Source: Bacillus sp. AFS037270
GTDB taxonomy: Bacteria; Bacillota; Bacilli; Bacillales_B; DSM-18226
Direction of reading: 5' to 3'
DNA: 64,000 nt
NCBI RefSeq assembly: GCF_002585305.1
Contig: NZ_NUNF01000020.1
Location: 55,860-119,859, forward strand
The notes beneath the pieces were generated by a model, which worked only from the letters and a program-made list of their open reading frames with translations, made no database searches and was not told the DNA's origin. A program made the position numbers and the translations under genes. Below, piece by piece: positions 10,573 to 44,757 of the stretch (its first letter is position 1; every line of letters starts with the position of its first letter).

Positions 10573-10598
10573 TTTTGTAGGACGGAAGATATTGCATG

Positions 10599-10636
10599 AA
10601 ACAAAGGCCCATCTATTCATATGGGCCTTTGTTTGT
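10599..10636 (+). terminator. Terminator of the FUSC gene
   Basis: AAACAAAGGCCCAT, loop, ATGGGCCTTTGTTT: a 14-bp perfect stem. The remaining 10637-10888 holds no gene that I can see. Confidence 0.9.
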
Positions 10637-10888
10637 GTTACATAATTGATATGATCCAGAGTTACATTTTTTAATTTATTTTATGTTAGCTTTTCTTACC
10701 AATTTTGTTACAACTAGCCATTCTTTCAGTAGAATACAATCATGTTAAACAATAAGTTGTACTTGTAAAACCATAAGTCAGTAGGGAAGGGGGATATATT
10801 AGTAAAATAGAATTCAGAACATTCAGTTAAAACTTTTTGAGAATCCAATCCACCTTTCTATGGCGTGTCAAAAAAAGGAGTGAATACC

Positions 10889-12358
10889 ATGCGAACGATA
10901 TCAATGGAAGATCAAGATTCTTTAAAAGTAAAAGATCCCTCTTTATATAATGAGGACCTTGCACCTCTTAATAAGGAAAAGAGGAATTGGAATTGGCTGA
11001 ACTATACGACAGTGTGGATGGGGATGGTCCATAATATAGTCGCATATGAAACAGCAGGAAGTTTGCTTGGGTTAGGAATGAGTGTCTGGCAGGCTCTAGC
11101 AACCGTGATAACGGCCAATATTATTCTTATTATAGCGATGTGGCTAAATAGTGCAGCGGGTGCTAAATACGGGATCCCTTTCCCGGTTCTGATTCGTGCT
11201 TCTTTTGGATACAAAGGGGCACAGCTTCCGATCATTATAAGGGCATTTGTAGCGATATTCTGGTTTGCCGTTCAAGCTTACTTAGGAAGTAAAGCAGTAG
11301 GAGCTGTTCTAGGTGCATTAATACCAGGCTGGAATAGTTTGTCGTCCATTCATATTTTAGGTATGGGGCTAAATGATGCCCTTGCAGTTGCACTTTTCTG
11401 GATATTACATGCATGGGTAATCTCACATGGCATGGAACGAGTTAAATTTTTTGAGCTATGGGCAGGCCCACTTGTAATTGTTTTAGGGTTAGCTCTTGTT
11501 ATTTGGGCAATAACAGTATCGAATGGATTAGGACCACTTTTTGATGAACCAGCAAAATTAACGGGTGGTGCATTTTGGAGTGCATTTGGAGTTTCGATTA
11601 CCGGACTGATTGGAACGTGGGCTACCTTAATACTGAATATACCGGATTTTACTAGGTTTGCACGAAGTCAAAAAGATCAAGTTATCGGCCAGGCAATTGG
11701 ATTACCAGGTACAGCGATTATTTTTGCTATTATGAGTATTATTACAACTTCGGGAACCATCATTGCTTTCGGTAGACCCATTTGGGATCCAGTCGAATTG
11801 CTTCAGCAATTTGGAAACCCGTTTGTTTTATTCCTGGGAGCTTTTGCATTGCTCATTGCTACCTTATCTGTAAATGTAGCAGCAAACGTTGTTTCACCTG
11901 CCTACGACCTAGTAAACTTATTTCCGCAAAAACTTAACTTTGTAAAAGCCGGACTCATTTCGATAATGGTTGCCTTATTTTTTGCACCCTGGCTATGGTA
12001 CAACAACTCAGGAACCATTTTTAATGTTCTAGGGGCAATCGGTGGAGCACTTGGGCCTGTCGGTGGAATCATGATTGCTGATTATTTCCTAGTTGCACGC
12101 AGGAAATATGATTTAGCTAGTTTTTATAGAAAAGACGGACTATACGAGTATACAAATGGTTGGAATGTTAAGGCACTAATTGCCCTAGTAATAGGGCTGA
12201 TAGCATCATTTATTGGATTAATTATTCCAGCATTGAAAGAGTTGTACACCTATTCTTGGTTCTTAGGGATTGGTATCGGATTCATTGCTTATATTTTGTT
12301 AATGAAATCAGATAAAGTGTCGGAATCGAAGCTTGAAAATGTAGAGACTACGATTTAA
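10889..12358 (+). CDS. NCS1 family nucleobase/hydantoin-type permease
   Basis: A 489-residue transporter with about 12 transmembrane segments, of the nucleobase:cation symporter-1 family (PucI allantoin permease, CodB, Mhp1). Diagnostic stretches are LAPLNKEKRNWNWLNYTTVWMG at the N-terminus, FGYKGAQLPIIIRA, LNIPDFTRFARSQKDQ and the VSPAYDLVNLFP segment. The frame stays open to a GTG at 10865, but AAAGGAG at 10874-10880 is ideally placed for ATG 10889, which I prefer. No catabolic gene for purines, hydantoins or pyrimidines adjoins it, so the substrate is unknown. Confidence 0.88.
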   Translation: MRTISMEDQDSLKVKDPSLYNEDLAPLNKEKRNWNWLNYTTVWMGMVHNIVAYETAGSLLGLGMSVWQALATVITANIILIIAMWLNSAAGAKYGIPFPVLIRASFGYKGAQLPIIIRAFVAIFWFAVQAYLGSKAVGAVLGALIPGWNSLSSIHILGMGLNDALAVALFWILHAWVISHGMERVKFFELWAGPLVIVLGLALVIWAITVSNGLGPLFDEPAKLTGGAFWSAFGVSITGLIGTWATLILNIPDFTRFARSQKDQVIGQAIGLPGTAIIFAIMSIITTSGTIIAFGRPIWDPVELLQQFGNPFVLFLGAFALLIATLSVNVAANVVSPAYDLVNLFPQKLNFVKAGLISIMVALFFAPWLWYNNSGTIFNVLGAIGGALGPVGGIMIADYFLVARRKYDLASFYRKDGLYEYTNGWNVKALIALVIGLIASFIGLIIPALKELYTYSWFLGIGIGFIAYILLMKSDKVSESKLENVETTI

Positions 12359-31176: not shown

Positions 31177-32781
31177 TTATCTTTGGAAAACTATATTTCC
31201 TGCCATATAAGTTTCTTTAACCAGAACAGTATCAATCTTGTCATTACAAATTTCCAATATGTCTTGATTAAGCACAATAAAATCGGCATAATTGCCAACG
31301 GAAAGCTGCCCAACATGGGGAATCCTGGTGATTTCTTGAGCGGCTTTTGTGTAAAGCATGATGGATGTAATCACATCAATCCTTTGTTTTTGTCCAGTAT
31401 CTGCACCATTATACGCCACGCGTGTCACAGCAGATTTGATCCCGACAAATGGATTTACGGGATCAGCCCAGGCGGTAGCAGGTGCATCGGAAGAAAACGC
31501 CACTTTTATCCCTGCCTCAAGCAAGGCTGGAATCGGATAGGTTTCCTTTGTACGTTCAGATCCGAGGTTTTTATGATAGCTCTCAATTTCTGCAAACACA
31601 AAAATGGGCTGTGTCACAAAGGCAATACCCGTTACAGCAGCACGCAGAATAGCCTGAGGTGTGGGCATTGCTGCATGCTCTATCCGAATAGAAGGACCAT
31701 CGGTAAGCCAGCCTGGTTTGTCAAAGAAGGTGTCAATGATTAATTCAATTGCTTGCTCGCCCATTGCATGGACAACTAATTGAATATCGTTCTGTTCGGC
31801 TGCTTTAGCTGCAGCTAATAACTCCTCCTTTGTTGTCGTTTGAATACCGAAATTTTCTTTTTCCCCTAAAAAAGGGGGATTGACCCATGCTGTTTTTCCT
31901 GAGACACTTCCGTCTGAAAATAATTTAATACCGCCAATGTGAATTTGATTTTCTCTGTTGATTTTATCTGGTACCAATAAAGGTTTGTCCTTCAAATCTT
32001 CCCACAGATAGTATAGAACCGTACGTTGTTTAAGTCCTTTTTTGACAGCTGTTTGATACATTTCTAGGTAATCAATCGGCTCGGTTCTGCTTGAAAGATC
32101 GGTAATGGCTGTGATTCCATGTGAAAGCAGGAAAGTACTTAATTCGGCAAGTGACGCAGCGTTTTCTTCAAGAGATTTTGCAGGCATAATGCGATAGACG
32201 AGATCTTTTGCATTTTCACGTAAAATTCCTGTTGGTTCCCCATTTAAGTCCCGGTCAATTTTTCCACCTGGTGGATCGGGGGTCTCTCTCGTAATACCTG
32301 CCAACTCTAATGCTTTGCTATTAACTACAGCAATGTGGGTACATGTCCGACTGATGAAAATCGGAATATCCACTGAGGCTTCATCTAAATCGCAGCGTGT
32401 TGGTGTTCTCCCTTCAGACAATTTCCCTTCATCGTAACCCCAGCCTTCAATCCATTTACCTGTTTCATTGGCCTTGCATGAATTCCGAATTTGTTCAATT
32501 AAATCTTCTATCGAATTGACAAATGGAGGGGTGCAGGCGATTTGGGTTGATGCATTTGCAAGCCACAAAGGATGCAAATGGGCATCAATAAGGCCAGGAA
32601 GCACTCGTTGACCTTTAAGATCCACACAATCTCCATCAATATTTTCCAAATCTGATTCCTCACCAATCCACGAAATGGTGCCATCTCGCACAATCATGGT
32701 GCTTGCAAATGGTTGTTCCGGATTAGCGGTGAAAATTTTCCCATTGATAAAAGTCCGCATAGATTGTTTATGAATTGTCAT
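31177..32781 (-). CDS. YtcJ-type amidohydrolase
   Basis: A 534-residue metal-dependent hydrolase of amidohydrolase family 3. [12 protein letters not shown] gives the first metal ligands (HLH), and [36 protein letters not shown] and AFSSDAPAT continue the metal and active-site set. Relatives include YtcJ and N-substituted formamide deformylase. Enzymes of this group cleave amide or cyclic amide bonds; the substrate is not predictable. GAGGAAG is 8 bases before the ATG. It lies 165 bases after the 608-residue unknown protein gene, with a hairpin between, so it may be a separate unit or a partial read-through partner of the ornithine/ATP-grasp cluster. Confidence 0.85.
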
Positions 32782-32946: not shown

Positions 32947-34773
32947 TCACTCTTGATTTGGAAAGTGAAAAGCATATAAGAAGTAGAGGAAATCTTCAAA
33001 AGGGAGGGATGACTCTCCATCACGCTCACCATTCCCAGTAACACTTGTTCTAATGGAGTTTCCCCATACTTGAAGACTATCGTTATTTGGATTATAAAAG
33101 TAAACACGAATGCAGCCCTTTGGATCATGGCAGACTCTTTGAATCAGTACTGCATGGGCACCAAGCACTTGACCAGTTTGGTTGTAAATTGTAATCCCGG
33201 CCGGCTGGGGAAGTCCTTCATTAACATTTGGATTTTCTAAAGGGTGATAGTGCCGATAGAACCGTGCCTTAAAGTCGGAGTCACTATAGATATCTGAAAA
33301 CTCGCTCCAAACTCCATTTATATGAAAAGAGGGATTGATCCATTTATGGGGATCCTGACCGCGTCCATTGGCAGCCTTTAACATTTCAAAATAAATAGAA
33401 TCAAGGTGAGGAATCAAGAGTAGTGAGACGGTATCAATATTATCCTCATCGTCCAATGAGACATGCGGAAGCGCATCTGAAGAGATTGGTCTTCCCTCAA
33501 AAGGAATCGTGATTTTTCCATGTTCTAGAAAATTATTAAACAATTTGAGCAGCATGACAGGATTCTTTTGTGACCAATAACTCAGTGCCCTTGTTGATTG
33601 GCATGTTGGATTAAAACCTTGGCCAATACCTAGGGGCTGCCCTAAAACATTAATCATTCCTGAAACAACAAGAGAACGAAGTGCAGATAAATCTAATATC
33701 TTATAAACGTTTATAAGCCTATTCTTAATCTGATCGTGTATAGGCACTTTTACAAGTTTCTCTACTTCACCTATCAATTCGCTCGTAAAAATATCCCGTT
33801 GCAGAAGGCACATTAAACCATAAATGCTTCCCCTAGTATTCATTGTAACGGCTGAAGTGATTAATGAAGTAACAAATGGCAAATTCGAACGGAGGTTTTT
33901 TCTGGCTGTTTTGTCCGCAGCCAGTAGGCTCTGTAGCAAATCTGGCTTTTCTTTATTAATAAATTTTAAAAATAACGTATGGAAGGGCGAAACAAGACCG
34001 GTATGCTTCATGGATTCACGCAGCTGCTCAGCTTCTTTGATTAATAATAAATCATTACTGGCCTTCAATTTATTTTCATAGCTTTCCCTAGCGGCTGCCA
34101 GATTCGATGGAGAATAGACCGCATTTTCGTATCTCATCAGGCTTGAATCTGTAACTTTTTGGTCGTTGGCTAATTTTCTTGCATTGGCTATTAATTTTAG
34201 GATTTTGTTGGTTACGATAGGCCTTTGGACAGCGAGATTATCCACTTCCTGATACAAAATTTGAAAAACATGGGAAGAAAAACAATGGTCTGAAATAAAT
34301 CCTAGAATTTCTGAAGCTTGTTTGTCTTTGTAAAGCTGCGTTACCCGATTTTCCTCCGTTTCTTTCATTAAAAGGAGGTCCAGGTTTAAAGCCATGACTT
34401 TTGTCAAGAATTCAGTTGCTTCTGCAGCCGACATTTCAGGATGTACATAATCACCTCTGGCAATGGAGAGGATTCTGAGATTGCTCATTGCCTCAGCTGC
34501 TGCCATGATTCCACCGGCATGCAAAGTGCCTCTTACTAGCGGGGGATTAAGCTTGCGGACATTCTCCCAGGGCTTCCCAGCAAATAACCCGGCTTCATCA
34601 AAGAGATGCGCATATTTGTGAATTTTTGCCAACCCATTCGGTTCCTTGAGAAGGGCTGCAGCTTCTTCATAAACTGCATGTTGAAATAATCTTTTAGTTA
34701 ATGCGGAAGTTTTCCATAACTGATAAAAGGCCCTTTGAAATGAATCCTCCGAAGTAAATAGAAAAAGTCCCAT
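32947..34773 (-). CDS. Unknown protein, paralogue of the 662-residue arg-cluster protein; putative Cys-His-Asn enzyme
   Basis: A 608-residue protein of no family I can name, related along its whole length to the 662-residue product at 39486-41474. Shared N-terminal blocks are FDEAGLFAGKPWE (residues 58-70), ALNLDLL (128-134) and ETEENR (138-143). Shared C-terminal blocks are GQPLGIGQGFNPTCQSTRAL (378-397), VLGAHAVLIQR (536-546), YFYNPNND (558-565) and GNGERDGESSLPF (580-592). The order Cys391, His540 and Asn561/Asn563 suits a papain- or transglutaminase-like triad. No signal peptide or membrane span is seen. GAGGAGGG precedes the ATG. It has its own promoter region after the argD terminator. 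Confidence 0.8.
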   Translation of the reverse strand: MGLFLFTSEDSFQRAFYQLWKTSALTKRLFQHAVYEEAAALLKEPNGLAKIHKYAHLFDEAGLFAGKPWENVRKLNPPLVRGTLHAGGIMAAAEAMSNLRILSIARGDYVHPEMSAAEATEFLTKVMALNLDLLLMKETEENRVTQLYKDKQASEILGFISDHCFSSHVFQILYQEVDNLAVQRPIVTNKILKLIANARKLANDQKVTDSSLMRYENAVYSPSNLAAARESYENKLKASNDLLLIKEAEQLRESMKHTGLVSPFHTLFLKFINKEKPDLLQSLLAADKTARKNLRSNLPFVTSLITSAVTMNTRGSIYGLMCLLQRDIFTSELIGEVEKLVKVPIHDQIKNRLINVYKILDLSALRSLVVSGMINVLGQPLGIGQGFNPTCQSTRALSYWSQKNPVMLLKLFNNFLEHGKITIPFEGRPISSDALPHVSLDDEDNIDTVSLLLIPHLDSIYFEMLKAANGRGQDPHKWINPSFHINGVWSEFSDIYSDSDFKARFYRHYHPLENPNVNEGLPQPAGITIYNQTGQVLGAHAVLIQRVCHDPKGCIRVYFYNPNNDSLQVWGNSIRTSVTGNGERDGESSLPFEDFLYFLYAFHFPNQE

Positions 34774-35119
34774 ATATCCATTCCCTCCTCTGCTTATTGC
34801 CTTTACAATATATTATTGACAAAAAATAAAGAGAATAACTGATTAGGAGAAAATAACGCAAATGCAACGTAGATACCGAGAAGGGTACGGCATTTAGCTG
34901 GCTAATGATCCTTCAACATTACCAGCTGAGCAGGAGAGATTCAAATGACAGGAGTAGGAATGTTTTAAACGATTAAATCGTAAGAATATTTATTAAATTT
35001 AAATTATTATTTGATTAATTTACCACAGGATGGTGAATATTTCAAATAATAAAATCTTCTTTTTTCATCACAAACAGCTTTGGCTAATATGGCCTTTTAA
35101 TATCTTATTGACTAAGCCC
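34774..35119. other. Promoter region of the 608-residue protein gene, no other gene
   Basis: About 350 bases of AT-rich DNA. On the minus strand it holds the ribosome binding site GAGGAGGG, and a TTGTCA near 34815 could be a -35, though no convincing -10 follows at 17 bases. No open reading frame with an RBS is seen. Confidence 0.4.
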
Positions 35120-35157
35120 AAAAAACAAGGACCACGAAATTATCTTTCGGGTCCTTA
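35120..35157 (-). terminator. Terminator of the ATP-grasp/argCJBD operon
   Basis: On the minus strand AAGGACC...GGTCCTT encloses a further GAAA/TTTC pair and is followed by TGTTTTTT. Confidence 0.85.
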
Positions 35158-35165
35158 AATTGTTA

Positions 35166-36344
35166 CTATTTAGTAAGCAACGCTTGCATATCGGCTACTA
35201 GGAATTCTTTTTCCAGAATTTCTTTTATAATGTAGACACCATATTTCAGTTCTTCTTTTGATACAGTTAACGGCGGCAATAGCCGGATGACCTTTTCTCC
35301 TGCTGGCAATGCGATAAGTCCCATTTTTCGAAGCTCACTTAAAAGCGGCGCTGCGGACAATTTGCATTCAATTCCAACCATCAGTCCCATACCTCTGATA
35401 TCCTTTATAATCGTTAAATGGTTTAGGTTATTCCGGAGTTGCTTAAAGAAAAACTCACTTTTTTCAACAACCTCATCTAAAAATTCCTCTTTAAAAATGG
35501 CATCCATTGTAGCAATAGCTGCCGCTAACGAGACAGGATTTCCTCCGAAAGTCGAGCCGTGACTCCCTTGACCAAAAAATGGCTCCAATTTCTCTTTCCC
35601 GATGACGGCTCCGATAGGAAATCCGCTTCCTAACCCTTTAGCTGATGTAATAAGATCTGGGTCTAGGTCGAAATGTTGGAAGGCAAATGGTTTCCCTGTT
35701 CGGCCAATTCCAGTTTGAATTTCATCAATGATGAAAAGTGTTCCATACTGTTTGCAAAGCTCTTGAACACCCTGTAGAAAATCCTTTTTACCAACATGAA
35801 TCCCGCCTTCACCCTGTACAGCCTCAATCATAACAGCGGCAACATCATTTCCCATTTCACTATTAACAGCTTCAATATCATTATATGAAACATTTACAAA
35901 TGTCTCGAGCATTGGTCCAAATCCATGCTTTATTTTGTCTTGGCCTGTTGCTGACATCGTCGCAAAAGTCCGGCCATGAAAGGAATTCTTAAAGGTGATA
36001 ATTTTTGTTTTTCCTGTTGCTTTACGAGCAAGCTTAATGGCCGCTTCGTTTGCTTCTGCACCGCTATTGGCAAAGAACACCCGATCCAGTCCGGCGGCTT
36101 CTGCAAGCTTTTTTGCGGCCGTCTCTTGGTTTTCACTTTGGAAAAGGTTCGATACGTGCCAAAATTGTTTAAGTTGCTTACGAACTGCTTCTTCGACATT
36201 ATTCGGGCGGTGTCCAAGAATACAGACGCCGATTCCTGAAGTGAAATCCAGATATTTTTTCCCATTTTTATCTGTCAAAGTACTGCCGCTAGCTGATTCA
36301 GGTTCAATCTCCCAGCGTGCATAGGTTGGAAATAAGTAACTCAA
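35166..36344 (-). CDS. argD: Acetylornithine aminotransferase
   Basis: A 392-residue PLP enzyme that converts N-acetylglutamate semialdehyde to N-acetylornithine with glutamate as amino donor. NSGAEANEAAIKLARK contacts the PLP phosphate, IIDEIQTGIGRTG holds the PLP-ring aspartate, and TSAKGLGSGFPIGA holds the Schiff-base lysine. Length is normal. It begins with TTG, sharing TTGA with the argB stop codon, so it is translationally coupled. It is the last gene of the tight operon, and a terminator follows. The carAB-argF genes that continue this operon in Bacillus subtilis are absent here. Confidence 0.96.
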   Translation of the reverse strand: MSYLFPTYARWEIEPESASGSTLTDKNGKKYLDFTSGIGVCILGHRPNNVEEAVRKQLKQFWHVSNLFQSENQETAAKKLAEAAGLDRVFFANSGAEANEAAIKLARKATGKTKIITFKNSFHGRTFATMSATGQDKIKHGFGPMLETFVNVSYNDIEAVNSEMGNDVAAVMIEAVQGEGGIHVGKKDFLQGVQELCKQYGTLFIIDEIQTGIGRTGKPFAFQHFDLDPDLITSAKGLGSGFPIGAVIGKEKLEPFFGQGSHGSTFGGNPVSLAAAIATMDAIFKEEFLDEVVEKSEFFFKQLRNNLNHLTIIKDIRGMGLMVGIECKLSAAPLLSELRKMGLIALPAGEKVIRLLPPLTVSKEELKYGVYIIKEILEKEFLVADMQALLTK

Positions 36345-37114
36345 TTCGTGATCGGCTCCTTCTGATAAATTTTAGTACCGTGCCATTGTCCATTTTTAAA
36401 AAAAGTTTTTTTACCGGACACAATCATGACGCTTTCGACGCCTTTTTCCACAGCATTAAGCGCCGATTGAACTTTTGGAATCATTCCGCCGCTAATTTCA
36501 CCATTTGATATAAAACTATGAACCTCTTGTTTGGATAGGGAACAGGCGAGAGAGCCCTCAATGAATACTCCATCCACGTTGGTCACAAATAGGCATTGTT
36601 CCGCACGAAGGGCTTTAGCCACCTCTGCTGCAGCATAATCTGCATTAATATTAAGTTTTTCGCCTTTTTCAGTAATTCCTATCGGGGTAATGACAGGGAT
36701 AAAGTTATTTTTTAGGACTAGTTCTAAGAATTCCGTATTTACTTTGCTGATTTTTCCAACCAGACCAAGCTGCTCACGGTTTATATAATCAGCTTGTAAA
36801 CAAGAGCCGTCACTTCCATTGAAACCAACTGCGGAGAATTGGTACTGCTGAAGCATTGCAACAAGCTTTCTGTTTGTCTGTCCAGATAAAATCATTTCTG
36901 CAATTTTTAGTGTTTGCTCATCTGTTTTACGAAGTCCATTTACAAATTGTGGTTTCACACGAAATAAGTTGAGCATGTCATTAATATTAGGGCCGCCGCC
37001 ATGAACAAAGACTAGTTTAAACCCACGCTTTTGCAGTTCGGAAAGACTTGTAAAAAAAGAAGGGGTTAACTCATCTAATACACTGCCGCCGCATTTGATA
37101 ACAAGATATTTCAT
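36341..37114 (-). CDS. argB: Acetylglutamate kinase
   Basis: A 257-residue amino-acid kinase that phosphorylates N-acetylglutamate, the second step of ornithine synthesis. KCGGSVLDEL is the N-terminal ATP-site motif, VFVHGGGPNINDML binds substrate, NINADYAAAEVAKAL and ISGGMIPKVQSALNAVEKGV follow. It lacks the N-terminal extension of arginine-inhibited hexameric kinases, so it probably is not feedback-regulated through that helix (inference from family). It is 16 bases after argJ and overlaps argD by 4 bases. Confidence 0.96.
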   Translation of the reverse strand: MKYLVIKCGGSVLDELTPSFFTSLSELQKRGFKLVFVHGGGPNINDMLNLFRVKPQFVNGLRKTDEQTLKIAEMILSGQTNRKLVAMLQQYQFSAVGFNGSDGSCLQADYINREQLGLVGKISKVNTEFLELVLKNNFIPVITPIGITEKGEKLNINADYAAAEVAKALRAEQCLFVTNVDGVFIEGSLACSLSKQEVHSFISNGEISGGMIPKVQSALNAVEKGVESVMIVSGKKTFFKNGQWHGTKIYQKEPITN

Positions 37115-37130
37115 CCTATTTCACCAATCC

Positions 37131-38360
37131 TTACGAACGATAGCTTGCATTTATTTTGACATATTTATAAGATAGGTCACAGCCCCATGCTTTTCCTTCT
37201 CCATTACCCACATGCAGATCGACTAAAATCTGAATAAAGGGCTGATTTAAATAGCCCCGTGCTTCATTCTCAGAAAATACACATGGGACACTATTTTTAA
37301 GCATTTGAATAGGACCGATGGCGATATCGACTCGATGAGGATTTATCACTGCATTTGTCTGCCCAATTGCTCCGATGATTCGTCCCCAGTTGGCATCAGC
37401 ACCAAATATAGCGGTTTTCACTAAATTTGACCCGACGATTTGTTTGGCAATGAATTTTGCTTCTTCATGATCCTTTGCGCCTAATACCTCGACTTCAACT
37501 AGCTTTGTAGCTCCCTCGCCATCCATAGCAATTTGCTTCGCTAATTTTTCACATGCCTTTGTTAAGAGCTCAATAAATGTTTCCCATTCCGGATGATCAG
37601 GAGTTAATGGAAGATTTTCTGCCATTCCATTGGCCATAACGAGAACCATGTCATTTGTGGAGGTATCTCCATCTACAGTGATTTGATTAAATGTGTTGTT
37701 AGTTACATTTTTTAAAGCTGCAGAAAGATGCTCAGAAGAGATGGCTGCATCCGTAGTTAGGAAACCAAGCATAGTTGCCATATTCGGATGAATCATACCC
37801 GATCCTTTTGCAGCACCACCAATTGTAATCGTTCTGCCGTTGATAGAAGCGGTGTATCCGCAGCTTTTCATCACGATATCGGTAGTCAAAATAGCGGTTT
37901 GAAAATCAACTGCATCACTGTTTAACTTGCCTGGTGATAAGGATTCAATGCCGTTTGTGATTTTATCCATATCTAAGTACTCACCGATAACACCTGTCGA
38001 TGCAACGGCTATATAATGTTCTTTGATATTGAATTTCTCAGATGTTAAGGAGCGCATTTTTAATGCATCCATGTATCCTCGATCTCCCGTACAAGCATTG
38101 GCACAGGCACTGTTTACCACAACAGCCTGTAAGAGTCCTTCACTAGCAATGCTTTCTTGAGTTACTTTCAAAGGAGCTGCTTGGAATTGGTTTGTCGTAT
38201 AAACTGCTGCCGATGAAGCCGGGATTTCACTAATAATGACCCCTATGTCCTTTTTAGCATAGCGGAGGCCGGCATGGACCCCTGCTGTTGTAAATCCTTG
38301 TGGTGACAAGATATTCCCATTTTCAATCTCAACAATTTTATCCTTTAGCAATAGTGGCAT
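37131..38360 (-). CDS. argJ: Bifunctional ornithine acetyltransferase / N-acetylglutamate synthase
   Basis: A 409-residue self-processing enzyme that moves the acetyl group from N-acetylornithine to glutamate, releasing ornithine and regenerating N-acetylglutamate. The autocleavage site is visible as MIHPNMATMLGFLTTDA, with cleavage expected between Ala and the Thr of ATML. TVDGDTSTNDM and GADANWGRI are further family motifs. With argC, argB and argD it closes the acetyl cycle, so this operon alone can make ornithine from glutamate once primed. GGAGGA lies 8 bases before the ATG and 12 bases after argC. Confidence 0.96.
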   Translation of the reverse strand: MPLLLKDKIVEIENGNILSPQGFTTAGVHAGLRYAKKDIGVIISEIPASSAAVYTTNQFQAAPLKVTQESIASEGLLQAVVVNSACANACTGDRGYMDALKMRSLTSEKFNIKEHYIAVASTGVIGEYLDMDKITNGIESLSPGKLNSDAVDFQTAILTTDIVMKSCGYTASINGRTITIGGAAKGSGMIHPNMATMLGFLTTDAAISSEHLSAALKNVTNNTFNQITVDGDTSTNDMVLVMANGMAENLPLTPDHPEWETFIELLTKACEKLAKQIAMDGEGATKLVEVEVLGAKDHEEAKFIAKQIVGSNLVKTAIFGADANWGRIIGAIGQTNAVINPHRVDIAIGPIQMLKNSVPCVFSENEARGYLNQPFIQILVDLHVGNGEGKAWGCDLSYKYVKINASYRS

Positions 38361-38372
38361 TCCAAATCCTCC

Positions 38373-39407
38373 TTAAGGGTACATGGGTATAAACTCTAAT
38401 CCCGTTTTCTCATCTAATCCATTCATTAAATTAGCATTTTGAACCGCCTGACCGGCAGCTCCTTTCATGAGATTATCGATAACAGAAACGATCGTTAACC
38501 TTCCTGTTCTCTCGTCAACATGTAAACCAATATCACAATAATTCGAACCAGAGACTTCCTTCACAGATGGGAAATTACCATTCTGCCTAATCCTCACAAA
38601 CGGACTGTGCAAATATTGTTCATTATATATTTCAATCAGTCTATCAGAATTAATATTGTCTGTAAGCTTGACATAAATGGTAGCCATGATTCCTCTTGTA
38701 ATCGGCAGCAAATGAGTATTGAAAGTGATTGGTGAAACTCCTGCTTTCCAAAGATTCAATTGCTGTTGAATTTCTGGAATATGCTGATGTTCATTTACCT
38801 TGTATATTTGGAAATTTTCATTGATTTCTGGGAATAGCAGGCTTTTAGATACAGATCTTCCCGCTCCGGATGCACCAGATTTTGCATCAATGATAATTAA
38901 TTCCGGGTCAATCAAACCTTCTTTTACCACTGGTGCAAGACCCAATAACGCTGCTGTAGGGTAACAGCCAGGATTTGCGATTAATTTAGCTTCGGTAATT
39001 TTTTCTTTATTCCATTCACTCAACCCATAAACTGCTTTTTTCAATAAACTGCTTTTAACTGGTTCGTGTTTATACCATTTCCTATACACTTCTACATCGG
39101 TAAGCCGCAGGTCACCGGATAAGTCAACAATTTGAATACCTGTATCCAAGAAGGCCGGAACAAGCTTACTAGATACACCTGAAGGTGCGGCAATAAAAAC
39201 GATATCTGAATGCTTCGTTATTTCTTCAACATCGATATGCTCGAGTTTTAAGTCTGTAATTCCGTATAGATGCGGAAACTCTTCATATAATGGGGTCTCA
39301 TCTCTTGTCGTATGCACTGAGTGTATACTAAATACAGGGTGGTGATGTAACAAGCGAAAAAGTTCACCACCGCCATATCCAGTAGTGCCGATAATAGATA
39401 CTTTCAA
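38373..39407 (-). CDS. argC: N-acetyl-gamma-glutamyl-phosphate reductase
   Basis: A 344-residue NADPH-dependent reductase acting on N-acetylglutamyl phosphate. IIGTTGYGGGELFRLLHHHP is the dinucleotide-binding start; IANPGCYPTAALL holds the catalytic cysteine; KSGASGAGRS and NEHQHIPEI (catalytic His) follow. The start is TTG at 39407 with GGAGGAG just upstream. It lies 78 bases after the 662-residue unknown gene. This gap has no terminator or arginine operator that I can identify, so the two are likely co-transcribed. Confidence 0.96.
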   Translation of the reverse strand: MKVSIIGTTGYGGGELFRLLHHHPVFSIHSVHTTRDETPLYEEFPHLYGITDLKLEHIDVEEITKHSDIVFIAAPSGVSSKLVPAFLDTGIQIVDLSGDLRLTDVEVYRKWYKHEPVKSSLLKKAVYGLSEWNKEKITEAKLIANPGCYPTAALLGLAPVVKEGLIDPELIIIDAKSGASGAGRSVSKSLLFPEINENFQIYKVNEHQHIPEIQQQLNLWKAGVSPITFNTHLLPITRGIMATIYVKLTDNINSDRLIEIYNEQYLHSPFVRIRQNGNFPSVKEVSGSNYCDIGLHVDERTGRLTIVSVIDNLMKGAAGQAVQNANLMNGLDEKTGLEFIPMYP

Positions 39408-39485
39408 AACGCTCCTCCTCGAGACGATCTGTTTATTTAAAGGTTTAACTTTGAGAACTGTCTAGCTTCAGCGCCTGCGGTTTTC

Positions 39486-41474
39486 TTAAGCCCATACATA
39501 ATTTTTGCCCCAGCTGTCTTTTGCCAATGCTTCCACTTCTTCCACAAGGTTATCCTCAACCATATAGATATCACCCTGTTCATATGGATTATAGTGAAAG
39601 GCATACATTCTAGATAAAAACTGATGAAACAAAAGGGAGGATTCACCTTCAAGTTCACCGAAACCAGAAACGCTTGGCTCAATGCCTTGTCCCCAATTCT
39701 GACCGCTGTCGTTGTTCGGATTGTAAAAATAAATCCGATAATCTCCGTTATGGTCTTTATTAATCCTTTGAACCGATACGGCGTGAAGACCGAGCAGCTC
39801 CCCGTGTACGTTGGTGATGAAAATCCCAACTGGATTTGGATAAATCAATTCGTACCCTTCGTTATATTCCGGATGGTGGGTAGCATAGAACAGCCGGACG
39901 AACGTGGAATAATTGGCGACTTTTAGCGTGAATGGATTAATTACATTTATAAAGCCCTTAGGAATCCACTCACCGTAAAATTCTGGGTTCACCCACTTAT
40001 GGCCGTCTTCTCCGCGCAGGAGTGTTCGCTTCATCATTTCGTTATATATTTTATCGAGGTGAGATACAAGAACAATCGATACAGGATCCAAATCCTGGTG
40101 GATTTCTCCGGCAACTCCACCAGTAATGAGGCTGGAGTGGATGGTCTCACCCTCAAATGTCATGTCAATATCATGATCACGGGCGGCACGGGCAATGTAC
40201 TCTAAAAGCTGGCCAATTCCATGCTGAGACCACAGCGATATGGCTCTTGCTGACTGACAAGTAGGATTCAGACCCTGTCCAACACCAAGCGGCTGTCCGA
40301 GAACACTAACTACCCCAGCAACGAGCACGCCATTCAGGCTAATACCGCACCGTTCAAATTCAGGCTTCGAAAGGATTTGCTTGACCTCAGAATGGATTGG
40401 GAGTTCAAACAAACGGCGAATGGCAGGCAACAGGTGATCTTGTGAAAGAACACCGCGGTCAAGCATTCTTGCCAGGCCATATATTGCTTGCCGAGTTTCA
40501 GGATAGATAGACAGTTGAATCATATCGTGAATCAGGTCTCGATTGGCATTAAAGCTAGCAGTCCCTGTTTCTGATAAATCAAGGGCTGCAGGAATCAAGT
40601 CAGGGTTCTTCCGGTTCAGGAATCGCAACAGTACGGCGTGATGGGGGGAAACAAGCCCGGTTTCTTTCATTGATCCTGCAAACATCTTGGATTCAGCCTC
40701 AAGTTCATCAACAAAGGCCTCCGCTAATCCGAGTCTATATTCCCTTTGATTCGACACATCCTTACTTAGTGGTGTTGGACCATTGGCAGCACGCGAGTAC
40801 TTTTTAAGAGCTTCTGCAGTTTTTTCATCCTGTACACTTTCAATTAAGGGTTCAAACATGTGAATCATGTTTAAAATCCGTCCAGTCATAATAGGGCGCT
40901 GAACGGTAAGGCGGTCAATCTCCTCAGCAATTTTATCAACAATCGCCTTGAACGAAAGTTCTTGACCCAGGTATTGGAACAAGCGCTGTGCTCGAATTAT
41001 GTGATCATCTAATTGAATGCGGTTTTCTTCAGTTTCTGGCGGGAATAAAAGGTCGAGATTTAGTGCAAGGATTTCATTTAAAAAAGCGCCTGCCTCTTCC
41101 GCACTAAAGCTTTCGTGAATGTATTCACTTTTGGCAATTGCAAGCATTCTCATTTCACTTAACAATTCTATAATGGATTGGACACCTTTAAGCTTTAGTG
41201 AACCGCCGGCAAGTGGGGGCTGCATTTTTGCAGGGTCTTCCCATGGTCCGCCAAGGAAGACACCCGCTTTGTCAAAGCGAGGGGCATTTGCATAAAGAAT
41301 GGTAAGTCCATCCTCTGATCCAGCAAGTTCAATCGCCAATTGAAAAACGTCTGTCTGGTACATGCTTTTCGCGAAAGATTTTGCCTCCTCAAGTCTATCT
41401 AGGGCAATTTCAAATCTATTTTTTAAGACAGCAGTTAGTTTACTCATCCTTTTCTTTTTTGACTGGGTCGTCAT
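39486..41474 (-). CDS. Unknown 662-residue protein between an ATP-grasp ligase and argC; putative Cys-His-Asn enzyme
   Basis: A soluble 662-residue protein that I cannot place in a named family. Residues 1-380 are mainly helical, with conserved blocks FDKAGVFLGGPWE (67-79), PPLAGG, ALNLDLL (137-143) and ETEENR (147-152). Residues 380-640 look like an enzyme domain: GQPLGVGQGLNPTCQSARAI (393-412) with Cys406 at a helix start, LLGLHAVSVQR (560-570) with His564, then YFYNPNNDSGQNWG (582-595) with Asn585/Asn587/Asp589. This order and spacing resemble papain- or transglutaminase-fold enzymes. The gene starts 14 bases after the ATP-grasp gene with RBS AGGAGGG. A paralogue lies at 32947-34773. Confidence 0.8.
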   Translation of the reverse strand: MTTQSKKKRMSKLTAVLKNRFEIALDRLEEAKSFAKSMYQTDVFQLAIELAGSEDGLTILYANAPRFDKAGVFLGGPWEDPAKMQPPLAGGSLKLKGVQSIIELLSEMRMLAIAKSEYIHESFSAEEAGAFLNEILALNLDLLFPPETEENRIQLDDHIIRAQRLFQYLGQELSFKAIVDKIAEEIDRLTVQRPIMTGRILNMIHMFEPLIESVQDEKTAEALKKYSRAANGPTPLSKDVSNQREYRLGLAEAFVDELEAESKMFAGSMKETGLVSPHHAVLLRFLNRKNPDLIPAALDLSETGTASFNANRDLIHDMIQLSIYPETRQAIYGLARMLDRGVLSQDHLLPAIRRLFELPIHSEVKQILSKPEFERCGISLNGVLVAGVVSVLGQPLGVGQGLNPTCQSARAISLWSQHGIGQLLEYIARAARDHDIDMTFEGETIHSSLITGGVAGEIHQDLDPVSIVLVSHLDKIYNEMMKRTLLRGEDGHKWVNPEFYGEWIPKGFINVINPFTLKVANYSTFVRLFYATHHPEYNEGYELIYPNPVGIFITNVHGELLGLHAVSVQRINKDHNGDYRIYFYNPNNDSGQNWGQGIEPSVSGFGELEGESSLLFHQFLSRMYAFHYNPYEQGDIYMVEDNLVEEVEALAKDSWGKNYVWA

Positions 41475-41488
41475 CCTACTGTTCCCTC

Positions 41489-42709
41489 CTAAAGGTAAAA
41501 ATCATATTTTTCATATTTTTTCATGAGGGTTCTCATCACTTCGCTGTCATTTCCGGTGAAGAAAATCGTTCCGTAATGGTTCCCAAAGCCCACCCGTTCT
41601 GCAACTTTGGAGGTAACAGGAATGAACATATCATGTCTTTCAAAATAAGGATGGTTTTTGAGATCCTCAGGGATATTAAGCTTTTCAATAATTGTTACAT
41701 TTGGATAGACCATCAAGCTGCCTGCATATCCCTTTGCAGATACCACTTCCTCAGGGAAAAAGGCGTCAAGTTCTTCTTCGGTTGTATCCGGATCGCTGCA
41801 AAGAATTTGTGCCTGAAATGCGCTGAATCCGTATGCCTTTTCGATTAATTCAAAGATATGACCACCAGGAACACGAGCGGCCACCTCGCCGAAATTCAAA
41901 GTTCCATCCGGGGCAATGAAATATTCAGGGTGTATGACGCCATTTTCGATCTCAAAGGCATCTACAAGCTTTTCAATCGCTTCCCTAATCATCGGCCGCC
42001 ATTCTTCAAGCGAAGGGGAAGCAGGTACGAAATTGGAATGACCAAGTTTTACATACTCGGTAATATTTAGGAACCTTACTTTCCCATTATGTATAAATGC
42101 CTCACAGGAGAATTCCTGACCATCAAGGTGGCTTTCCATAAGGAGCGGAAATTCAGAATCACAAATTTGTTCTATCTCGTGTCGGTCCCGAATCATTCGA
42201 TGGCCAACTGTACCCGCTTTATTAAATGGCTTCACATGTATAGGGTCATTCAAATCGCCATCAAGCTTAATTAATGCCTCGTTTACTCTATTTAAGAATC
42301 GATAGATATCATCCTTGTTTTCAGCTTCCGCAAATACTCCCACACGGATGCCAGCCATCTGGGCTTTCCGCTTCATCAACCCTTTGTCACGGAGTAGCAG
42401 GGATTTATGGAAAATGCGTGGGTTCTTGTGTAACTTTGCATTTAAAGCACCAGCCCATTCAACGGTTTCCTCGTAAATCGGTACGGCAACTTTAGTATTG
42501 AGATCCTTTAATTTTTCATAGAGTTCTTCTGATCGCATCTGTAAATCTTCAAATACCCATGGGACGAGATGTATACCATGGGTGTCAGCAAATTCTTGAA
42601 ATTCAGGGGGACCCACAACCACATACGGTCGATTCATTTTGTCAATCGCTTCGATTGCGTGCAGGCTCCAGCCCAGCAATGCCGTTATTTTACCCTTGTT
42701 CTGTTTCAT
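41489..42709 (-). CDS. ATP-grasp carboxylate-amine ligase
   Basis: A 406-residue ATP-grasp enzyme. A pre-ATP-grasp domain covers about residues 1-100. The ATP-binding lysines are probably in HVKPFNKAGTVG (158-168). MESHLDGQEFSCEAF (191-205) contributes the adenine-contact glutamates, and GVIHPEYF (257-264) with LNFGEVAARVPGGH (271-284) gives the Mg-binding Glu275 and substrate Arg279. Relatives are L-amino-acid ligases and carboxylate-amine ligases of peptide and cofactor biosynthesis. It joins a carboxylate to an amine through an acyl phosphate. As first gene of the operon with argCJBD, ornithine or a derivative is an attractive substrate (inference). RBS GGGAGAG. Confidence 0.87.
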   Translation of the reverse strand: MKQNKGKITALLGWSLHAIEAIDKMNRPYVVVGPPEFQEFADTHGIHLVPWVFEDLQMRSEELYEKLKDLNTKVAVPIYEETVEWAGALNAKLHKNPRIFHKSLLLRDKGLMKRKAQMAGIRVGVFAEAENKDDIYRFLNRVNEALIKLDGDLNDPIHVKPFNKAGTVGHRMIRDRHEIEQICDSEFPLLMESHLDGQEFSCEAFIHNGKVRFLNITEYVKLGHSNFVPASPSLEEWRPMIREAIEKLVDAFEIENGVIHPEYFIAPDGTLNFGEVAARVPGGHIFELIEKAYGFSAFQAQILCSDPDTTEEELDAFFPEEVVSAKGYAGSLMVYPNVTIIEKLNIPEDLKNHPYFERHDMFIPVTSKVAERVGFGNHYGTIFFTGNDSEVMRTLMKKYEKYDFYL

Positions 42710-42912
42710 CTGAATAACTCTCCCTATTTTTGAATTAATTAAAAGATCATAACAGCCTTATTCTAGCAAAGAATAATATCTAAATTTTCAGATTTACATA
42801 AATTGTACAAATACTTCAAACGACTTTAACAAATTATTTACATTGATTTACTAAAATAGGGAAGACGTCAAAATAGATGTTATTTCAAAAACTCGGGCAA
42901 AGGGGTAATGTA

Positions 42913-43476
42913 ATGAACAACTGGTATGCTAGATTGACAGACTATTTTCCAGAAAGAGAAATGAAATCGAGAAAGCATTTTGAAATCCTTTTTAACGAAA
43001 AACAAGGAATTTATCAAATAGAGGAAAGTCAAGACTTTGTACTTGTTTACTTCGAAATGTCTGATTTTATCTTCATAGATTACATACTAGTGGCCCGAAA
43101 CAACCGTCGAAATGGGAGAGGCAGTAGGATTCTTGACCAACTGAAACAAAAGGGGAAAGCGATCATACTAGAAGTTGAACCAGTTACTCTTATAGATCCT
43201 GACTCAGAAAAAAGAATACAATTCTATAAGAAAAATGGTTTTTTAAAGATGAATTCTATTCGTTATGAACGAATCCATTTGGTTACAAATGAGTTGAATA
43301 AAATGGACATTTTTTGTTGGTCTCCAGTTACTAAAACAGAAAAATGGGTTTATGACAAGATGCATGCTATATATGAGGGTGTGCATGCTTATAAAGCCAG
43401 AGAATTGTATGGGCGAGATCCCCAGCCTGTGTCAGATGTACTAAGGAAAAAGGAACTAACGTATAGTAAAGCTTAG
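42913..43476 (+). CDS. GNAT family N-acetyltransferase
   Basis: A 187-residue acetyltransferase-like protein. FIFIDYILVARNNRRNGRGSRILDQLKQ is written here only in part as the acetyl-CoA loop RNNRRNGRGSR (motif A, near residue 60-70), followed by RIQFYKKNGF (motif B). The C-terminal 50 residues are extra and helical. I start at ATG 42913, 7 bases after AAAGGGG; the frame extends to an ATG at 42877 without RBS. It is divergent from the ATP-grasp/arg operon, sharing a 200-base promoter region, so it might act on the same product, but no direct sign of this is seen. Confidence 0.82.
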   Translation: MNNWYARLTDYFPEREMKSRKHFEILFNEKQGIYQIEESQDFVLVYFEMSDFIFIDYILVARNNRRNGRGSRILDQLKQKGKAIILEVEPVTLIDPDSEKRIQFYKKNGFLKMNSIRYERIHLVTNELNKMDIFCWSPVTKTEKWVYDKMHAIYEGVHAYKARELYGRDPQPVSDVLRKKELTYSKA

Positions 43477-43650: not shown

Positions 43651-43809
43651 TGTTGATATGCAGCAGTTTTGACTCATTCGTGCAAAATGACTATTTTGCA
43701 CGCTTTCAGCAGATGCTGAAAGTGATTGAAACGAAAAGAAAAACTAAAGAGAAAATGAATTTTCTCGACGTTTTCTTTTCGTTTCAGTCAAATGAGTCAA
43801 AAATCAACA
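43651..43809. repeat. Cloverleaf-like intergenic element (MITE/bcr-like)
   Basis: An outer inverted repeat (TGTTGAT...TTTTGACTCATT at 43651-43678 against AATGAGTCAAAAATCAACA at 43791-43809) encloses three hairpins in series. These are GTGCAAAAT/ATTTTGCAC (43680-43701), CTTTCAGCA/TGCTGAAAG (43703-43722) and a long TGAAACGAAAAGAAAA / TTTTCTTTTCGTTTCA arm (43727-43787) with GAGAAAAT/ATTTTCTC at its tip. About 157 bp with no coding capacity. The right arm runs into the LysR gene's 5' region. Its size and structure recall short mobile-type intergenic repeats of Bacillus; copy number elsewhere cannot be seen. Confidence 0.75.
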
Positions 43810-43854
43810 CTAGACTTTAACATAGCCAAAAAGTATATAAGGTGTTTGATAAGA

Positions 43855-44757
43855 GTGGAAATTAAACATTTGGAGTGTTTTATTGAAGTTACCCGTACTG
43901 GCAATTTCACCAATGCAGCTGAAAATCTATTCATTACGCAGCCTGCCCTCAGTAGAATTATCAAATCATTGGAGGATGAACTTGGTACACAGCTATTTAT
44001 TCGTACAAGAAAAAAGCTGATATTAACAGATGCAGGACTTATTCTAAAAAAACATGCATTAATAATTGAAAAACAGTTGCAGCTATTGGATGCGGAACTT
44101 GGTAAGATGTTCATGCTAAAAAAAAGCCATGTCCGTATTGGGCTCCCTGCGATTACCAATTCCATTTTCTTTTCACAACTGATTGCCTCGTTTCATGAAA
44201 AATATCCAGAGGTGACATTCCAATTGGAAGAGGATGGCTCTAAGCCGATTGAAGAGAAGGTTGTCAATGGTTTGCTAGATTTTGGGGTTGTCGTTCTTCC
44301 TGAAAAAAATGATGATTTCGACTATTATATGTTTGTTAATGAGGAATTAAAACTAGTTGTACCCTCGTCTCATCGTCTTGCCGGGAAACAGGAAGTGTCA
44401 TTGAAAGAACTTAAAGAAGAGAGCTTTATTATGTTCAACCGGGATTTTGAGTTAAGAAACCTTGTCATCACTGCTTGCAGAGAAGCTGGTTTTCAACCGA
44501 TAATTATTTCGGAAACATCACAATTAGATTTTATTCAAGAATTGGTTGCTTACAATATAGGTATTACTTTGCTGCCTGAGAATATATGTTTAGAACTAGC
44601 AAATGATTTTCGAACTATAACCGTAACCAACCCGACAATCGAATGGAATCTAGCGATGATCTGGAAAAAAGATGCATACTTATCACAGGTTGCGAAAGAA
44701 TTTATCCGATTTGCCAAAGTAAAGCTGTCGACAGCTAATCATAACCATGATTCATAA
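43855..44757 (+). CDS. LysR family transcriptional regulator
   Basis: A 300-residue LysR-type regulator. The winged helix-turn-helix is at the N-terminus (HLECFIEVTRTGNFTNAAEN, TQPALSRIIKSLEDELG). The effector domain covers residues 90-295 (VRIGLPAITNSIFFSQLI, GLLDFGVVVLPE, YNIGITLLPENI). GTG at 43855, preceded by AAGGTG, gives the usual LysR length. The frame extends to an ATG at 43792, but those 21 codons lie partly in the right arm of the structured repeat and are unlikely to be translated natively. The target genes are not obvious, since no divergent partner is adjacent. Confidence 0.9.
   Translation: MEIKHLECFIEVTRTGNFTNAAENLFITQPALSRIIKSLEDELGTQLFIRTRKKLILTDAGLILKKHALIIEKQLQLLDAELGKMFMLKKSHVRIGLPAITNSIFFSQLIASFHEKYPEVTFQLEEDGSKPIEEKVVNGLLDFGVVVLPEKNDDFDYYMFVNEELKLVVPSSHRLAGKQEVSLKELKEESFIMFNRDFELRNLVITACREAGFQPIIISETSQLDFIQELVAYNIGITLLPENICLELANDFRTITVTNPTIEWNLAMIWKKDAYLSQVAKEFIRFAKVKLSTANHNHDS

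Follow-up and report, generated by a model that had tools for sequence, protein, structure and literature searches.

We analyzed a 64,000-nucleotide stretch of DNA from Bacillus sp. AFS037270 (contig NZ_NUNF01000020.1, positions 55,860 to 119,859 of the forward strand; hereafter the window), in which six tightly spaced genes on the minus strand place a set of ornithine synthesis genes behind those for an ATP-grasp ligase and a large protein of an unnamed family. The first gene of the operon (41489..42709) encodes the ligase (406 amino acids, RizA/BL00235-like, over the cut-off for ATP-grasp_4), and the second (39486..41474) encodes a 662-amino-acid protein with a helical N-terminal part and an apparently papain-like C-terminal part that contains Gln-400, Cys-406, His-564, and Asn-585. 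These are followed by argC (N-acetyl-gamma-glutamyl-phosphate reductase, 38373..39407), argJ (ornithine acetyltransferase/N-acetylglutamate synthase of the second-copy type, 37131..38360), argB (N-acetylglutamate kinase, 36341..37114), and argD (N-acetylornithine aminotransferase, 35166..36344). The four products all exceed their NCBIfam cut-offs (TIGR01850, 445.8 bits against 233.6; TIGR00120, 507.9 against 298; TIGR00761, 258.4 against 151.3; and NF002797, 583.8 against 496, respectively) and make up a complete set for ornithine synthesis by the acetyl cycle. From the ligase gene to argD, the spaces are 14, 78, 12, and 16 bases, followed by a 4-base overlap of argB and argD; the open reading frame (ORF) coordinates thus confirm the array, order, and gaps given in a first-pass annotation of the sequence, which had also called the operon "fused" to the ligase, where the genes are merely adjacent and no fusion exists. 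Directly 3' of argD lies an intrinsic terminator on the minus strand (35120..35156), a hairpin followed by a T run, for which an RNA fold of 35060-35170 gave z = -2.97; the hairpin was absent from the output of a generic terminator scan of the window. The canonical continuation, carAB-argF, was not seen downstream of argD among the window ORFs. Instead, 392 bases after argD, we find the gene for a 608-amino-acid paralogue of the 662-amino-acid protein (32947..34773, minus strand; 37% identity, with the same invariant catalytic residues in the alignment) and, 165 bases further, that for an amidohydrolase family 3 protein (31177..32781, minus strand; PF07969, E = 3.3e-94). The terminator, the missing continuation, and the two downstream genes therefore stand as first described. 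We consider it moderately probable that this operon is a dedicated supply of free ornithine (argCJBD) behind the two-gene core of an undescribed small-molecule pathway.

The two genes at the head of the operon belong together in nearly every genome in which the family was seen. A protein search with the 662-amino-acid protein gave 2853 relatives at E <= 0.001 among 7998 scored candidates; in the list of the best 120, the nearest is from Neobacillus vireti, where it is annotated as hypothetical (96% identity). A scan of genome contigs yielded 91 stretches with relatives of the family. We kept the best 80 and divided them, going by title and similarity, into 39 Bacillota-like loci (L001-L038 and L080, one titled Chryseobacterium) and 41 other loci (L039-L079: Bacteroidota, Balneolaceae, one Gemmatimonadetes, one metagenome-assembled genome titled Rickettsiales, etc.). 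Among the loci assessable for this (1300 or more bases upstream), 37 of 38 Bacillota-like and all 40 others have a ligase gene directly upstream of the family gene, no more than 700 bases away and on its strand; the exception is L038, where the family member at 9995-11965 has no ligase upstream, and L036 shows just a 114-amino-acid ligase fragment. The pair is also present in Halomonas sp. PA16-9 (a 1.8-Mb record, the sole match of a plasmid search), where neither arg genes nor a racemase matched within 10 kb of it. Given this near-constant adjacency, we regard the ligase and the 662-amino-acid protein as a constant core. The genome-neighborhood survey called for by the first-pass annotation thus shows that an ATP-grasp gene recurs almost always beside the family and that arg genes recur beside it in different phyla, contrary to the possibility that homologues never lie near either. 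We note that 608-type genes without an adjoining ligase match, in genomes without a 662-type gene, occur at L088:1492-3333 (G483) and L089:1489-2547 (G462). A search by titles and the openings of abstracts, with most subscription papers outside its scope, found no published account of the pair; an earlier prediction is possible in Iyer 2009, which is reportedly a survey of ATP-grasp amidoligases.

Neither the 662- nor the 608-amino-acid protein matched any Pfam or NCBIfam family, BtrH_N included, at E up to 1. Gln-400, Cys-406, His-564, and Asn-585 are invariant in 58 of 58 alignment rows of the 662-amino-acid family and make up a papain-like signature, i.e. Cys, His, and Asn in this order with a putative oxyanion Gln six residues ahead of the Cys; we take these positions to correspond to the catalytic residues of papain. 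The model of the whole 662-amino-acid protein, in which the papain-like part was folded together with the rest, gave no Foldseek match at E <= 0.001. From its sequence, the protein would be a large papain-like cysteine enzyme, apparently cytosolic. A defense system was considered and rejected, with no PADLOC family found for the ligase or, at E up to 0.01, for the 662- and 608-amino-acid proteins.

The profile of the ligase matches RizA (4wd3) with E = 3.3e-11, along with BL00235 and two other ATP-grasp chains, and the RizA match spans profile positions 65-314, including the conserved GE-A-RI-GG block, presumably the Mg-ATP block; the invariant Glu-275 and Arg-279 of the ligase align with RizA residues. 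The structural model (predicted local distance difference test score, 88.9) has RizA 4wd3 as its top Foldseek match (E = 2.5e-25), and ranks 1-3 and 5 are 4wd3, 3vot (two chains), and 3vmm, i.e. RizA, BL00235, and BacD. By profile and model, the ligase thus resembles most nearly the enzymes that join two free amino acids. A carrier pathway of the LysW type, with a LysX/ArgX ligase, was dropped as a candidate, the argJ of the acetyl cycle being present and the ligase being RizA-like.

Where an arg module accompanies the pair, its arrangement differs between lineages. In Bacillota, argCJBD lies downstream of the pair, and in Bacteroidota, the order is argBDCJ, placed downstream of, upstream of, or divergently from it. 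In a tree of ArgJ (46 rows, flagged for long branches), the copies of the window, L001, L002, L004, and L104 form one clade (100/100); this pair-linked Bacillota clade stands apart from the canonical argJ of these genomes, and copies from Bacteroidota fall elsewhere. We conclude from this placement that the arg module was recruited more than once. The Bacillota locus occurs with the whole argCJBD, with argCJB without argD (G580/L144), and with argJ alone (G003, L004/L146), so that argJ is always kept; the latter two versions suggest that the ornithine-releasing argJ is the last gene to be lost. Two further argJ-like genes (L113:6589-7782, G014; L107:1526-2719, G560) pair on a very long branch (100/100), and no argB, argC, or argD match was found in the fetched 14 and 12 kb around them. 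In Cyclobacterium (L057:2277-8158 and L064:2286-8136), the ligase, 662-type, and racemase genes stand head-to-head with another arginine cluster (argB, argD, and argC), which by eye also holds argG-like and GNAT-like genes; the argJ module of the L057 genome lies elsewhere (L114).

According to the first-pass annotation, the ornithine supply would be in doubt if this argCJBD were the only arginine route. This is not the case in the closest relatives compared, which is where, rather than in the source organism's own genome, a second arginine operon was shown. In each of G001, G002, and G003, the argJ gene at the locus is accompanied by another at a different place in the genome. Within the genus of G001 (61 genomes), argJ of the window type (85-88% identical) is present in five, all of which also keep the canonical argJ (53-56% identical), bearing out a second arginine route for these relatives. 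The ligase and 662-type genes were seen at four of these five loci, and the contig of the fifth (G614) ends just past argC. In a wider draw from the family (131 genomes), seven carry a full-length 662-type protein and three a second full argJ, at the locus in G001 and G549 and as a lone divergent copy in G560. Further, the control regions of the two operons appear to differ. Scanned with what we take to be the ARG-box consensus, canonical argC has a similar site (two mismatches at most) in 9 of 11 cases; for the pair's operon, such a site was found in 1 of 5 regions upstream of the ligase and in 0 of 4 upstream of argC. This level is reached by 17 of 500 stretches of 360 bases drawn at random from the window. 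No such site was found in the divergent promoter region between the ligase and GNAT genes (42710..42876), and two matches elsewhere near the operon lie inside argB (36641-36654) and ahead of the paralogue (34983-34996). Arginine repression of the operon was rejected as a candidate, with ARG-box-like matches in the window (13) not exceeding those in shuffles (mean, 14.4).

The carriers outside Bacillota bear on the fate of the ornithine. No ornithine carbamoyltransferase (OTCase) over the cut-off was found in 12 of 15 such genomes, and all four Bacillota genomes searched have one. We scanned nine OTC-like stretches from eight carrier genomes, a subset of all matches. Five passed the cut-off for N-acetylornithine carbamoyltransferase (G007, G016, G004, G005, and G243), a sixth came close (G012, 278 against 288), and three (from G243, G011, and G394) are aspartate carbamoyltransferases. 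The acetyl- and succinyl-ornithine bypass enzymes are described in PMC4581275. Because the six bypass-type carbamoyltransferases adjoin an argC other than the one linked to argJ, these six carriers probably make arginine via acetyl- or succinyl-ornithine and consume no free ornithine; their argBDCJ would probably yield ornithine that no OTCase found could use. Among 148 genomes of the order of G007, three carry the family, and the same three, and no others, have argJ. G007 was picked for carrying the family; for the two genomes not so chosen, simple arithmetic, uncorrected for kinship, puts the chance of coincidence at 1 in 10,731. Among the carriers in these draws that were not their centers (G120, G227, G243, G320, and G394), argJ lies within a few kb of the pair in two (G243 and G320).

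Other neighbors of the pair are lineage-specific. An alanine-racemase-like gene lies downstream in 36 of 37 assessable non-Bacillota loci (those with 1300 or more bases there, the exception being L042) and in 0 of 37 Bacillota-like loci. The two products scanned pass the alr equivalog TIGR00492 (298.6 and 290.5 bits against a cut-off of 168), and at the position that we take to govern alanine preference (Tyr-354), none of the 35 racemases printed, of 39 in the cluster, has Tyr (Asn in 32, Gln in 2, and Ala in 1). At least two alr matches over the cut-off were found in all 13 non-Bacillota genomes searched, so the operon racemase is probably not the sole cell-wall racemase. In eight (G004, G005, G007, G008, G011, G016, G320, and G394), an alr match lies inside an ORF of more than 800 amino acids, the length expected of a putative MurF-Alr fusion. 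RacX of Halocola ammonii, a 27-kDa racemase of the Asp/Glu type (PMC12838360), was set aside as differing from the operon's alanine-racemase-like protein. In Marinoscillum (L044:6947-7774 and L051:13152-13970), a gene of 272-275 amino acids and no clear family sits between the racemase gene, which it overlaps by one base, and argB; the L044 copy has a weak NCBIfam match. In Bacillota, the conserved neighbor is a divergent GNAT acetyltransferase gene, in the window at 42877..43476 on the plus strand (PF00583, E = 1.8e-5; 25.4 bits against a cut-off of 20.7), homologues of which occur in 29 of 37 assessable Bacillota-like loci against 0 of 36 others. Slightly past it in the window is a gene for a LysR-type regulator (43792-44757, plus strand). 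Of the Bacillota-like loci with 3000 or more downstream bases, 13 of 36 have the 608-type paralogue. The amidohydrolase noted in the first-pass annotation does follow the paralogue in the window, L002, and G580/L144 but not in G549/L104, G614/L145, or G003/L146, and we regard it as incidental rather than a constant partner. Next in the neighbor clustering, after the family, the ligase, the racemase, and the GNAT, come mixed ABC ATPases (25 loci), mostly from Planococcus-type loci that share long synteny. No exporter was recognized as a constant partner in the neighbor clustering, in which the smaller clusters are mostly unannotated and may include a lineage-specific exporter.

The known systems closest to this one each share part of it. 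RizA, BL00235, and BacD, which make dipeptides without a nonribosomal peptide synthetase (NRPS), have the same ATP-grasp fold and a similar size and are linked to the window ligase by the RizA profile match, whereas the identity in structural matches is at most 19%; we know of no 662-type partner, racemase, or ornithine operon in their clusters. In butirosin synthesis, BtrJ is reportedly an ATP-grasp activating ligase. Its partner BtrH is a papain-like acyltransferase according to PMC10318531. Butirosin synthesis thus also pairs an ATP-grasp ligase with a papain-like acyl-transferring enzyme, but the 662-amino-acid protein has no BtrH_N or other Pfam domain, and the window has no carrier protein gene among its listed ORFs of at least 120 amino acids, shorter ORFs being outside that list. 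The argCJBD-carAB-argF operon of Bacillus has the same four genes in the same order and uses the acetyl cycle; the window set differs in lying behind the ligase pair, in lacking carAB-argF, in its own argJ clade, and in that most pair-linked copies are missing the ARG-box-like site. In the synthesis of N-acetylglutaminylglutamine amide (NAGGN), the dipeptide is likewise made by an ATP-grasp ligase, which also has acetyltransferase activity, and another enzyme tailors the product. These enzymes would belong to other protein families, and ornithine rather than glutamine is suggested here. Finally, in the phaseolotoxin and mangotoxin systems, a ligase-made peptide is reportedly tied to ornithine metabolism and to spare enzymes of the arginine pathway; unlike in those systems, no toxin-type cluster was recognized beside the pair, where most neighbors are unannotated.

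We propose that ArgB, ArgC, ArgD, and ArgJ would convert glutamate to L-ornithine with acetyl recycling and that, in Bacteroidota, the racemase may first produce a D-amino acid. The ATP-grasp enzyme would activate a carboxylate as an acyl phosphate and join it to an amine, with ornithine as one partner, and the papain-like enzyme could then form a thioester on Cys-406 and transfer, cyclize, or trim the product. In some Bacillota, the paralogue might carry out a second step and the GNAT may acetylate, and lineages without a local module, i.e. most Bacillota carriers, could draw ornithine from the canonical operon. The simplest account would be that free ornithine, or a derivative, is a substrate of the pathway in module-bearing lineages, because a module that releases ornithine came to lie beside the same pair in at least two lineages and because the module accompanies the pair in a sampled order otherwise without argJ. 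For the papain-like protein, we infer that transfer is to be favored over simple proteolysis, because its gene directly follows that of the ligase and the identified recurrent neighbors are small-molecule enzymes.

Several observations weigh against the reading of the operon as an ornithine supply. argJ lies within the fetched flanks of a minority of loci, i.e. 3 of the 39 Bacillota-like (L001, L002, and L004) and 8 of the 41 others (L044, L046, L049, L051, L054, L070, L072, and L078), or, counting loci whose flanks each extend 5 kb or more, 2 of 32 and 5 of 25; likewise, it adjoins in two of the seven genomes of the family draw that have a full-length 662-type protein. The argJ tree includes Bacteroidota-type argBDCJ from several genomes without the family, and OTCase passes the cut-off in G015, G227, and G120, where argBDCJ may serve arginine synthesis; genome completeness was not reported, and the absences in the other carriers may be assembly gaps. 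At the phylum level, all four carriers among 296 genomes match argJ (G120 by a 55-residue fragment only), which is not informative because ArgJ is found in 123 of the 296. As for the enzyme, its match to a papain-like fold is weak, under the level that excludes chance, and families missing from the comparison list may fit as well. The earlier proposal that the arg genes supply ornithine to the ligase and the Cys-His-Asn enzyme is well supported as genetics, with arg genes adjoining a minority of loci. These minority counts, together with the OTCase of three non-Bacillota carriers, are also what one would expect if an ordinary argCJBD operon were simply read past unrelated genes. We consider such chance adjacency very remote and largely refuted already by the second copies in all five genus-level carriers, the more than one recruitment, the lack of an OTCase over the cut-off in 12 of 15 non-Bacillota carriers, and the matching occurrence in 3 of 148 genomes.

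Other functions can be imagined for the same genes. The product might work as NAGGN does, as a compatible solute, in the form of an ornithine dipeptide that is acetylated or amidated; it would need no exporter, and the GNAT would cap its amine. We regard this as fairly unlikely. The idea agrees with the absence of a recognized constant exporter (in clusters that are mostly unannotated), with the GNAT kept in 29 of 37 Bacillota-like loci, with the impression from titles that the carriers include Halomonas and a number of saline, soda-lake, or marine names, and with N-delta-acetylornithine as an osmolyte of aerobic Firmicutes (PMC2329653). The GNAT is, however, absent from the 36 other assessable loci. 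Further, the genera of many Bacillota carriers are not known as halophiles. The near-invariant pairing could also be that of a protein or peptide modification system in which the ligase attaches, and the papain-like enzyme removes, a small tag, possibly ornithine, and the 2009 survey by Iyer is said to have predicted tagging for pairs of ATP-grasp enzymes and peptidases; a ligase of the free amino acid type and identified recurrent neighbors that are small-molecule enzymes (the arg module, the alanine-racemase-like enzyme, and the GNAT) make tagging unlikely. We see only a slim chance that the pair makes an antimetabolite against arginine synthesis, with the second argJ or argCJBD as a resistant copy of the target. 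It would explain why, of the arg genes, argJ alone is never missing from the Bacillota locus (by itself at L004/L146, in argCJB at L144), and precedents are mangotoxin, which reportedly inhibits ornithine acetyltransferase, and the OTCase ArgK, with which a phaseolotoxin producer reportedly defends itself. However, a whole argBDCJ in an order otherwise without argJ cannot be a spare target, no resistance gene or exporter was recognized as constant, and most loci have no arg gene. Returning to the pathway that we favor, we tentatively suggest its full form as one possibility: an undescribed pathway without an NRPS, widespread and present in three phyla or more, in which a papain-like transferase or cyclase would act on a ligase-made ornithine peptide (with D-ornithine or another D-amino acid in Bacteroidota) to give an intracellular metabolite and for which lineages otherwise without free ornithine would keep a dedicated acetyl-cycle operon.

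Overall, an unnamed family with thousands of members is tied by a near-invariant partner to a testable small-molecule pathway, and the link to ornithine supplies a concrete substrate for assay. Bacteroidota in which arginine synthesis bypasses free ornithine lend themselves to clean genetics, as we found no OTCase in them that would consume the ornithine of argBDCJ. If our proposal is true, a papain-like enzyme class would join NRPS-free peptide synthesis, and puzzling second sets of arginine genes would be explained.

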